A stretch of 64,000 bases of DNA from an uncultured Poribacteria bacterium (GTDB taxonomy: Bacteria > Poribacteria > WGA-4E > WGA-3G). Under the pieces are notes generated by a model, which saw only the letters and a program-made list of their open reading frames with translations, had not been told where the DNA came from and made no database searches. The DNA is taken from positions 496,001-560,000 of the forward strand of contig OX639973.1 of NCBI GenBank assembly GCA_951828385.1. The letters run 5' to 3'. Shown piece after piece: positions 44,265 to 47,890 of the stretch. The position numbers and the translations under genes are program-made. The stretch's first letter is position 1. Each line of letters starts with the position of its first letter.

Positions 44265-47200
44265 CTACAGCGGCGGTAAGTTGTTAACAATCTCCACTGT
44301 CTTGAGGCTGATGGTGATGACGCTGGCGATGAGGTCTACGATATATTGCGGTTTGGCTTCTCGGTTCGGGTCGTTGACAATCCCACTCCGTTTGTCTACC
44401 TTCACACGATACTGGTCTATTACCCACTCTAACGCCGAACGATTGCCTAACTTGTACGCATAAACCTCGGCAGGAATACCGTCGAGTGTGAGGAAATCGT
44501 TGTACTTCAACTGTGTCTTGTCTTTGGAGAGGTTCATCTTCTCGACGCGCCAATCTATCTTCATCCCCGGTGTTTCAATGCCCTTCAATCCATCGTATTT
44601 TGGGGCGGATTCGTAGTTGATGTGGAGGTCTGCTAACTGCGCGCCTGCGTTGGCGAATCCCCAGAAATCTTCGGTAAACGGGATATGCGGTAGGTCGCGC
44701 TTGAGGTTCATCTCGTATTTTTCACGGTAGGCGGGATGGTGCAGGAGTGCGTAGGTATAGTGGAAGATGTCCCACTTAGTGATAGTGTTGTCGTTGTAGT
44801 GGGTACGGAATTCTGCTAACGCCCAATCGGTGATGTTCTCTTGTCGGTTCGTGCCGTCCTCGTCGTAGGTGTAGAACGGGAAGCACTGGCTTCCATCTAT
44901 AGAAGTTATCGTCAAATTCGGAATTACATTTGTTAAATAACACCAAAAGTCGGCACGTCCACCCTTACTCGGTACACATATCACCCTGTTTTCTGTTTCA
45001 GTTTCTGGTGTAGGAAAAATTCGGTGTTGCTGATAACGCTCCTCATTCCAGAAGTGATCGAAGTAGAGATATTTCTGACAAAATGGACGATATAAGGATG
45101 TGCGAAAGTTGGCAGCTTCATAGACACTTTGCTCCAGTTTTTTAAGTGATGCCTTAACTTGACGAGTCCATTTGATACGCGAATCAGTCGTATCAATGAA
45201 ACTGTCAACCGACGTTGTAGGGGTGTGTCTTCTCTTTCTATCAACAGTGGTGTTGTATATTTCAATAAATGTATCAACCCGTTTCTGTAACAACTCAAGA
45301 TCAAAAGAGTAAGCCAAAATATCTCTGTTTGTAGCAACGCCCAGAGAATAGAGATTAAAAATAACCTCTCCACCTTTTGTGTTTTTCGTTTCCTTACTTC
45401 CCATGGGGATAAAAGTATCAAACTCGGCGTGAAGACCTTCTGTTAGCCATGTATATCGACTATCAGGTGTTAGTTGTTGCCAATTAAAGTTTTGGTAATG
45501 CTGTTTTGAATTGAGATAGTGATACTTTTCTTCCTTTCGCCAAAATTCATCTACGCGTGCATAAAAGATTTCGGCGGGCTTCGGATCTGTTTTTAGCGAA
45601 CCTCTCTTGATAAAAAGATTAATGCTCACACCGACCTGAATGCCAAAGACATTGTGAGTCGTTCCTGACAATTTCGGATTCTCGCGAACGTTTCCGCCCA
45701 AATCCAAAGTATAAATTACATCAAAATCGTCTGCAAGGTGTTTCCGCATACCATCAAACGCCGTGCGCTCAAGAAACCCATTGTTTGTTACGAAGGCAAC
45801 AACGCCTTCATCTCCAATCCTGTCGGATGCCCACCGAATCGCCTTGACGTAGGGATCGTAGAGTTTGTTTCTAAGTGTGGCTTCAGAATCTTTTACATAC
45901 GTCTCTGCAACTCGACTATCCATTGCCTTATACTTCCGATTTTTATTATTGTCGTTCTCGTTAATCTGTCCCATGTTGTACGGTGGGTTGCCGATGACGA
46001 CGAACATATCCGCTGCCTTCTGTTTCTTCACACGTTCTGTGTTCTCACGCGTGAAGAGTTCGCCTTGCTCCTGCTCAAGCAGCTCAAACGTGTCAGCAAG
46101 CGCGATGCCTTCAAACGGTAGATACATCCCTGTGCGTTGGAAGTACTCCTGTTCAATGTTGAGACTGGCGATGTAGTAGGGTAGGAGCATGACCTCGTTG
46201 CAGTGGAGTTCGTGGCGATATTTTTCTTCTAATGCGGTGCCTTGAATATCCTGCATGAGTCGGACGATGAAGTTGCCCGTACCGACAAACGGATCAATGA
46301 TATGCACGCCGGTATCCGACAACGACCGGTTGAACTCGGTTTTAAGAATATGCTCGACGCTTTTCACCATGAAATCGACAATCGGTTGTGGCGTGTAGAC
46401 GATGCCGTGCGTGTCTGCGACATCTTCGGAGAAGCTTTGAAAGAATTTCTCATAAAATGTGTTGAGGAAATGCTGTTTTTGGGTGAAGTCTCTGCAGAGC
46501 GTCGCTGCTTGTTCGATGGCGACATAGAAGCGATCCAACGGTGCGAGAAACGCGTCACGACTCACGGCGTGCCGCATGAGCGCGTCGCTGACGTTTTCAA
46601 TCTCACGTGCGATGATATTCCTGCGCGTGAAGTCTGATCGCTCGAAGACGGTACGGAAGATGCGTTCGGTGAGGATGTGTTGGATGAGCATCTCCTCGAC
46701 GGCATCTTGTGAGAGTTCCGGGTTAATTGCGGTGCGGCAGGTTTCGTAGAAGTCGGTGAACGCCTCTTTGAACGCCGGATCCGTTTCGTGGCGTTGGTCA
46801 ATAAGTTCTTTCAACCTATTTGCGAGGTCCGGGACATGCTCTCTGAAATCCGCGACCGCGGTCTGCCAGTTACCCAATGCGGGTGGGACGTAGGCGAATA
46901 GGTACTGGAGTGCTGCAATTAATTGCGCAGGTTCAGTGATGTCCACATCTAAAGCGGTCTGTCCGTTTTGGTATAGGATAATGCGCTGTGGCGTTTGGAA
47001 GCAGGTGTTATCGAGTGGGTAGCCTGCCGCCTGTTTTTCTGATATTGCTTTCGGGAGATCGTCGTCTATATCTTTCGCTTCCCAATAAGCGAACGGGAGA
47101 CCGAATTCGTCGAGGATCGCGCCGTCAATAACGATGCGGTTTCCGTTTGTGGTGCGCATCGCATATTGGGCGATGAGCGTGGCGTTGACCTGTTTTGCGG

Positions 47201-47333
47201 AGCTATCGAGTAAGAAGGCGAACGGGTTGCTGACCGCGCCTTCGTGTCTGACGGCGTGTCGGTCGTATTGCTGCAGCGTGGTGTAGTAGTCGCGGATTGC
47301 TTTGTGGCTGGGTTTGAGGTTCAGTTGCGGCAT
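44265..47333 (-). CDS. Single-chain restriction-modification enzyme (type IIG/ISP-like)
   Basis: A 1022-residue enzyme. An N-terminal nuclease-like segment has IVIDGAILDEFGLPFAYWEAKD (E85-x-K87, PD-(D/E)xK pattern). The adenine-N6 methylase has motif I DPFVGTGNF (347-355) and motif IV NPPY (449-452). The C-terminal half resembles the target-recognition region of LlaBIII-type type ISP enzymes (VKVDKRSGIVNDPN near the end). The helicase of type ISP is absent. Such enzymes methylate one site type and cut unmodified DNA. Its own last 60 codons have a diverged copy at 34626-34804. No ribosome binding site was seen at ATG 47333. Confidence 0.88.
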   Translation of the reverse strand: MPQLNLKPSHKAIRDYYTTLQQYDRHAVRHEGAVSNPFAFLLDSSAKQVNATLIAQYAMRTTNGNRIVIDGAILDEFGLPFAYWEAKDIDDDLPKAISEKQAAGYPLDNTCFQTPQRIILYQNGQTALDVDITEPAQLIAALQYLFAYVPPALGNWQTAVADFREHVPDLANRLKELIDQRHETDPAFKEAFTDFYETCRTAINPELSQDAVEEMLIQHILTERIFRTVFERSDFTRRNIIAREIENVSDALMRHAVSRDAFLAPLDRFYVAIEQAATLCRDFTQKQHFLNTFYEKFFQSFSEDVADTHGIVYTPQPIVDFMVKSVEHILKTEFNRSLSDTGVHIIDPFVGTGNFIVRLMQDIQGTALEEKYRHELHCNEVMLLPYYIASLNIEQEYFQRTGMYLPFEGIALADTFELLEQEQGELFTRENTERVKKQKAADMFVVIGNPPYNMGQINENDNNKNRKYKAMDSRVAETYVKDSEATLRNKLYDPYVKAIRWASDRIGDEGVVAFVTNNGFLERTAFDGMRKHLADDFDVIYTLDLGGNVRENPKLSGTTHNVFGIQVGVSINLFIKRGSLKTDPKPAEIFYARVDEFWRKEEKYHYLNSKQHYQNFNWQQLTPDSRYTWLTEGLHAEFDTFIPMGSKETKNTKGGEVIFNLYSLGVATNRDILAYSFDLELLQKRVDTFIEIYNTTVDRKRRHTPTTSVDSFIDTTDSRIKWTRQVKASLKKLEQSVYEAANFRTSLYRPFCQKYLYFDHFWNEERYQQHRIFPTPETETENRVICVPSKGGRADFWCYLTNVIPNLTITSIDGSQCFPFYTYDEDGTNRQENITDWALAEFRTHYNDNTITKWDIFHYTYALLHHPAYREKYEMNLKRDLPHIPFTEDFWGFANAGAQLADLHINYESAPKYDGLKGIETPGMKIDWRVEKMNLSKDKTQLKYNDFLTLDGIPAEVYAYKLGNRSALEWVIDQYRVKVDKRSGIVNDPNREAKPQYIVDLIASVITISLKTVEIVNNLPPL

Positions 47334-47400
47334 GTCGGTATGATAGCAGGTTTGTGGTGATAGGTCAAGCGAAAATCCGCACTATTTTTAAACAAAACAC

Positions 47401-47429
47401 CTGACATTTTTATGCAATTTATTTATACT
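47401..47429 (+). promoter_or_regulatory. Promoter of the lipoprotein leader RNA
   Basis: CTGACA (47401-47406), a 17-nt spacer and TATACT (47424-47429). Transcription would start near 47436, leaving a 180-nt leader before the lipoprotein start codon. Confidence 0.65.
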
Positions 47430-47448
47430 TAATAACGATCACCAAACG

Positions 47449-47462
47449 CGATTCGCGAATCG
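47449..47462. promoter_or_regulatory. 14-bp perfect palindrome near the start of transcription
   Basis: CGATTCGCGAATCG lies about 13 nt after the predicted transcription start. It could be an operator or an RNA hairpin; the binding factor is unknown. Confidence 0.4.
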
Positions 47463-47539
47463 GTTGCGTGTCGGGTTGAAAATGCCCAAGAATTGAGGAA
47501 ATGTTTGGTTTCAGGGCGGTTTTGATGAGAAAATCGCGT

Positions 47540-47562
47540 TCCTGTTTGAAGGGAATGGAAAC
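47540..47562 (+). ncRNA. Solitary CRISPR-repeat-like hairpin in a leader RNA
   Basis: GTTTGAAGGGAATGGAAAC (47544-47562) matches the crRNA-sense 3' end of the array repeat at 18 of 19 positions. The upstream bases TTCCT can still pair with GGGAA, so the repeat hairpin is kept, and the handle reads ATGGAAAC instead of ATTGAAAC. It lies on the transcribed strand, about 105 nt after the predicted transcription start and 55 nt before the lipoprotein ATG. Only one copy is present. Confidence 0.6.
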
Positions 47563-47617
47563 TTTATTTAAAGAAGGCCGAACCTAACTGGAAAATAAGG
47601 TATTTAAGGAGGAAAAG

Positions 47618-47890
47618 ATGGGAAAAGGTGTTTTTATGATGATGGTAATAACAATAATGGTGTTGGGACTGCTGCTTACCGGTTGTGAGCAGACGTTACA
47701 GATAATGGGTCCAATACTAGAAGCACCAGAAATGATAGAACCGGGGATATTAGAACCGGAAACACCCGTTAATACTACAGGAGACTGTATTAGTCAGGTG
47801 GGACCGGTTACAAGTCAAGGTGGCCAAAGATCGTTACAAGAGTGTCTGGAGAGGGAAGATGATGAAGACCTGCCTGATCCAGATAACTAA
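47618..47890 (+). CDS. Small lipoprotein
   Basis: A 90-residue lipoprotein: signal peptide with lipobox LLLTGC (Cys near residue 23), a Pro/Glu-rich spacer (MIEPGILEPETPVNTT) and an acidic tail EREDDEDLPDPDN. Two more cysteines could form a disulfide. AAGGAGG stands five bases before ATG. No known family. Its leader RNA contains the CRISPR-repeat-like hairpin. Confidence 0.75.
   Translation: MGKGVFMMMVITIMVLGLLLTGCEQTLQIMGPILEAPEMIEPGILEPETPVNTTGDCISQVGPVTSQGGQRSLQECLEREDDEDLPDPDN

Follow-up and report, generated by a model that had tools for sequence, protein, structure and literature searches.

To our knowledge, the ectopic CRISPR repeats described to date work either by way of guide RNAs or as decoys. 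Among the closest described systems are the CRISPR-regulated toxin-antitoxin modules (CreTA), whose creA genes carry an ectopic degenerate repeat with its handle preserved and a guide that matches the toxin promoter (PMC8501985, PMC9458426), and have no CRISPR leader (PMC8501985). The scaRNA of Francisella novicida, with which Cas9 is guided to repress a lipoprotein operon (described in PMC9458426), is another, and the solitary repeat units termed Racr, which are phage- or plasmid-encoded, place one repeat behind a promoter (PMC10651486).

The element described here lies in a 64,000-nt stretch of a poribacterial genome (the window, whose numbering is used unless stated otherwise) and resembles each of these systems in part. 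Like creA it has an ectopic degenerate repeat with the handle preserved, but it carries a leader, no guide target was found for it, and a lipoprotein gene follows. As with scaRNA, a repeat-derived RNA would be associated with a lipoprotein gene, although here the repeat sits in the lipoprotein's own mRNA leader and belongs to type III arrays. It shares with Racr the single repeat behind a promoter, but is chromosomal and uses the host's own leader. In its promoter, leader, hairpin and handle the element is homologous to the resident RT-Cas1 type III arrays 1 and 2; it differs from them in having lost all spacers, the leader's second half and the repeat's 5′ part, and in being followed by a protein gene. 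We propose, with a probability of roughly 0.6 for the explanation as a whole, that 47393-47562 is the remnant of a CRISPR array that has collapsed to zero spacers, with the leader promoter driving the lipoprotein gene and a retained repeat that Cas6 can cleave in the mRNA leader. The element and its surroundings comprise the following features:

15-202, - strand: second, decayed leader copy directly behind array 2 (leader model, E 7e-24)
293-1652, - strand: intact CRISPR array 2 (about 293-1375) and its complete leader (1376-1652), against which repeat and leader were compared (repeat and leader model)
44265-47333, - strand: divergent type ISP restriction-modification (RM) gene (Pfam Type_ISP_C, 2.7e-100)
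47393-47541, + strand: promoter-proximal half of the array leader, model positions 4-152 of 278 (leader models)
47401-47429, + strand: promoter, with -35 CTGACA (47401-47406), a 17-nt spacer and -10 TATACT (47424-47429), read from the sequence
47537-47543 and 47551-47557, + strand: stem of the hairpin, with loop GTTTGAA (folding)
47538-47562, + strand: 3′ part (25 nt) of a single CRISPR repeat (sequence match, folding and comparison with a sister genome)
47555-47562, + strand: crRNA-type handle ATGGAAAC, with a predicted Cas6 cut 5′ of it
47563-47617, + strand: 55-nt mRNA leader from the repeat to the start codon, not conserved in the sister genome and without a genomic target
47618-47890, + strand: 90-aa lipoprotein with lipobox LTGC (open reading frame; no Pfam or NCBIfam family)

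The solitary repeat was first noticed as a 19-mer with 18 of 19 positions identical to the array repeat and lying in crRNA sense, and both observations held. The sequence GTTTGAAGGGAATGGAAAC (47544-47562) differs by a single T>G mismatch, which yields the handle ATGGAAAC, from the repeat of array 2 (about 293-1375, - strand), which reads CTTTGGATCCACTTTCCCGTTTGAAGGGAATTGAAAC in crRNA sense; the match lies on the + strand, which is the crRNA strand, and extends upstream as GTTCCTGTTTGAAGGGAATGGAAAC. Shuffles of the 64-kb window gave a chance expectation of 0.01 for matches with up to three mismatches, in agreement with the earlier judgement that such a match is unlikely to arise by chance. Outside arrays and degenerate tails, the 6.66-Mb genome holds four matches with up to two mismatches (492001; 540572, inside RM coding sequence; 543544, the solitary repeat itself; and 5945337), while a reversed control pattern gave none at that threshold; the solitary repeat is therefore not a scattered genome repeat, a possibility that the first-pass annotation had raised against itself. 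The 3-mismatch match at 44572, inside RM coding sequence, was judged to be chance. The one at 492001 lies upstream of the Csx1-Cas10 genes: this lone repeat (L057:8002-8026 (-), that is G000:C1:492001-492025) has a perfect 19-nt core, no leader, and a position about 600 nt upstream of the Csx1-Cas10 block, and Cas6 feedback on cas expression is possible there.

Folding upheld the hairpin that had been described as kept through a G-U pair. Its upstream arm GUUCCU pairs with GGGAAU, the closing pair is G-U, and with the T>G change the stem reaches 7 bp, longer than in the array repeat; the predicted energy is -9.1 kcal/mol as against -6.8 for the array repeat (z -2.35). The features of a Cas6 substrate, a repeat hairpin and an 8-nt 3′ handle, are present, with one handle position differing. 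The stability of the whole 211-nt leader RNA was ordinary (z -1.32), and a search of the region against Rfam returned no family, even at E 1.

A promoter upstream of the repeat had also been reported, correctly; absent from the first-pass annotation was the fact that this promoter, with the sequence between it and the repeat, belongs to a CRISPR leader. An alignment of the window with the leaders of arrays 1 and 2 and of two arrays from the sister genome Candidatus Poribacteria isolate PCPOR4 (G005) revealed the common blocks TTGACA-17-TATACT, AAACGCGATTC, GCCCAAGAA and AAAATCGCGTT. The promoter is of the sigma70 type and aligns with the TTGACA/TATACT of all array leaders. A model built from 22 array leaders, with the window's own copy left out, scored 47393-47541 at 69.8 bits (E 4.7e-21), and an independent model (R1, array leaders only) recovered the same region at E 2.1e-18 in a whole-genome search that took in 60 genomes. 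Among these 60 genomes the leader family was confined to this genus and a single related one, for the most part at arrays. Given this homology, the order of the element is leader, one repeat, gene, and the earlier suggestion of a fossil array is supported and takes a specific form, one repeat joined to a CRISPR leader.

The window's leader ends at model position 152 of 278 and is directly followed by the repeat; the leader has lost about 125 nt of its 3′ half, and the repeat its first 12-13 nt. Leader (ATCGCGTT) and repeat (TTCCC) overlap at the junction by 2 nt, TT, the trace expected if a deletion had joined leader and terminal repeat; an intact leader-repeat junction for spacer integration is absent. 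Of the marks of a CRISPR array, the element thus has the first half of a resident leader sequence and one repeat, in place of at least two repeats with uniform spacers. Two leader arms, AAACGCGAT and ATCGCGTT, lie within 47393-47541. RNAalifold found only 4 weak pairs in the leader alignment; the 9-bp helix AAACGCGAT/ATCGCGTTT, when scored by itself, had 91.9% of cells paired and 5 cells with double-sided changes, a level reached by 0 of 500 shuffles, although only 2 helix pairs carry double changes, so that an inverted repeat in the DNA is just as likely. The leader arms covary in L056, L030 and L046 (alignment A1), where CGAGA/TCTCG replaces CGCGA/TCGCG, and a third arm copy near the repeat changes along with them.

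The gene behind the repeat is preceded by a strong Shine-Dalgarno sequence, AAGGAGG, at 47606-47612, and its product has the conserved core TGDCISQVGPVTxQGGQRSLQxCLE. The lipoprotein matched no Pfam or NCBIfam family, had no relative among the viral contigs searched, and its gene was found in 2 of the 60 genomes searched. The one clear homolog, from PCPOR4, is 63% identical; dN is 0.28 and dS 1.19, and identity at codon positions 1, 2 and 3 is 80, 72 and 52%, which indicates that the lipoprotein is under selection.

This homolog occupies the tail of array A, a real array, and stands 53 nt after a terminal repeat that carries the same T>G handle, on a contig encoding Cas1, RT and Cas6 orthologs at 81-87% identity. 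Upstream of that repeat is an interspersed repeat element, with no leader in common with the window, so only the repeat-plus-gene unit is conserved. Conservation in relatives, which had been proposed as a check, was thus found in this form and as RM-side leader copies in three other genomes. Between the window and PCPOR4 the repeat core is identical at 19 of 19 positions (P about 5e-6 against the 52% third-position identity) and the 25-mer at 23 of 25 (P about 3e-5 on the same basis), and the spacer-like 53-55 nt between repeat and gene are not conserved. The repeat is constrained, although this constraint could reflect recent relocation and not selection.

Taken together, the features suggest a mechanism in which a deletion would have joined the promoter half of the leader to the 3′ part of the terminal repeat, with an array-tail gene behind it. 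After the collapse the leader promoter would transcribe the lipoprotein gene, and the retained repeat would form a hairpin in its mRNA leader; resident Cas6 would cut this hairpin at 47554/47555, such that the cut mRNA begins with the handle, about 63 nt before the start codon, and lipoprotein expression would be coupled to both the CRISPR promoter and Cas6. The role of the leader as promoter of the lipoprotein gene is strongly implied. Homology of leader and repeat, recurrence of the repeat-plus-gene unit and constraint on the repeat are demonstrated directly. From the sequence we infer both transcription from the leader promoter through the repeat into the gene and Cas6 cleavage of the hairpin with its effect on the mRNA; Cas6 most likely cuts the hairpin, as hairpin and crRNA handle are preserved. 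The resident system is an RT-Cas1 type III locus, with Cas1, reverse transcriptase, Cas6, Cas10, Csx1 and a patatin-like effector encoded between arrays 1 and 2, and its Cas6 is therefore available to act on the retained repeat. A scan of the window and of neighbouring loci gave no close match, at up to 6 mismatches, for the 69 spacers of the arrays. Three more repeats follow the decayed leader copy at 15-202, outside the window (genome 495519-495700).

One may postulate instead that leader and repeat are decaying debris in front of a lipoprotein gene that is read from the leader promoter without Cas6. This account is rather less probable, though it has points in its favour: array tails in this genus are rich in decayed repeats and inserted interspersed elements, terminal repeats are often decayed, and the collapsed arrays of two other genomes (G009 and G021), where single-repeat remnants stand beside full leaders and indicate that array collapse is common, have no gene with a Shine-Dalgarno sequence immediately behind them. 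Decay alone, however, sits poorly with a 19-nt repeat core that is identical in two genomes at a dS of about 1.2, with a hairpin stronger than that of the array repeat, and with a promoter and Shine-Dalgarno sequence that are both intact.

The first-pass annotation had named precedents of the CreTA or scaRNA type; on such a reading the handle and the next 36 nt would form a crRNA-like RNA repressing, for example, RM or cas genes. A solitary degenerate repeat with its handle and an adjoining RM gene invite this comparison, but we consider it improbable. The proposed guide proved to be the stretch between the repeat and the ribosome binding site, it is not conserved in PCPOR4, and a genome search with the 22 nt after the handle gave no second match at up to 3 mismatches. 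Complementarity around the lipoprotein and RM promoters was not above that of shuffles, and the single borderline match in the cas region (24 of 36) has no seed. The element, moreover, has a leader and lacks a second repeat, and the locus next to it is type III (Cas10, Csx1, Cas6), not type I Cascade or Cas9. A Cas6 decoy or phage-type unit such as Racr, which the single repeat behind a promoter would fit, is very improbable: encoding by a virus or other mobile element found no support, as the 24-nt repeat had no exact match in 2.9 million viral contigs and the search for a viral relative of the lipoprotein was negative, and what stands upstream is an array leader of the host itself.

The collapsed-array explanation gains context from other leader copies and array tails in related genomes. 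In each of three sister genomes a CRISPR-leader copy adjoins the start of the closest RM ortholog; these copies are remnants with 1 (G004), 2 (G010) or 0 (G029) repeats, and the genes after them are not the lipoprotein. The RM gene itself has about a dozen paralogs in the genome. A leader without repeats stands upstream of a gene for a secreted 233-aa protein in five Poribacteria genomes (G000, G013, G019, G025 and G029). Two features from the related loci are:

L067:917-1845, - strand, also L066, L068, L070 and L120: repeat-less leader with the secreted 233-aa protein gene (leader search)
L060:7780-8790, - strand: the TCAGTTATCAGTT...AACTGATAACTGA element, also at array tails L182, L183, L187 and L110

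In array 1 of this genome, as in G013, a late or last repeat that has degenerated is followed at 38-40 nt by another 90-aa gene (46% identity between the two genomes). At array tails of G026, a gene for an exported 309-aa protein comes directly after the last or near-last repeat, and in G024 the gene in this position is one that we take, from the visible sequence, to be Uma2-like. Overall, a Shine-Dalgarno sequence and an open reading frame of at least 60 aa follow 7 of 47 terminal or ectopic repeats, compared with 2.1% of random positions; the nominal P of 6e-5 is too optimistic, as the seven cases represent four gene families and the random control, which includes coding positions, is lenient, and the enrichment is suggestive only.

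These cases suggest a third path for ectopic CRISPR sequence, in which an ordinary gene acquires a whole CRISPR leader, accompanied by a repeat or not, as its promoter and mRNA leader. Such recruitment would have been repeated within one genus, and immune-memory DNA of a sponge-dwelling Poribacterium would be recyclable into a gene control region, with array shrinkage explaining how tail genes can come under CRISPR control. If Cas6 acts here, a protein-coding mRNA would fall under the crRNA-processing machinery, which is directly testable. A bolder idea, which we regard as unlikely, is that poribacterial array tail genes yield mRNAs that Cas6 either releases or destroys by acting at the terminal repeat, with lipoprotein output reporting on Cas6 and array transcription; if true, the lipoprotein would serve as a switch or guard, changing once Cas6 is blocked by a phage or the array collapses.

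Two further observations concern repeats in these genomes. The TCAGTTATCAGTT...AACTGATAACTGA interspersed element recurs precisely behind terminal repeats that are truncated (GGGAATTGGGGA), as though it targeted array ends. At L062:9900-15840 (-) (G004:C73), CRISPR repeats occur among ordinary genes in one operon-like row, and one of these repeats is the ribosome-binding region of a MurB-like gene.
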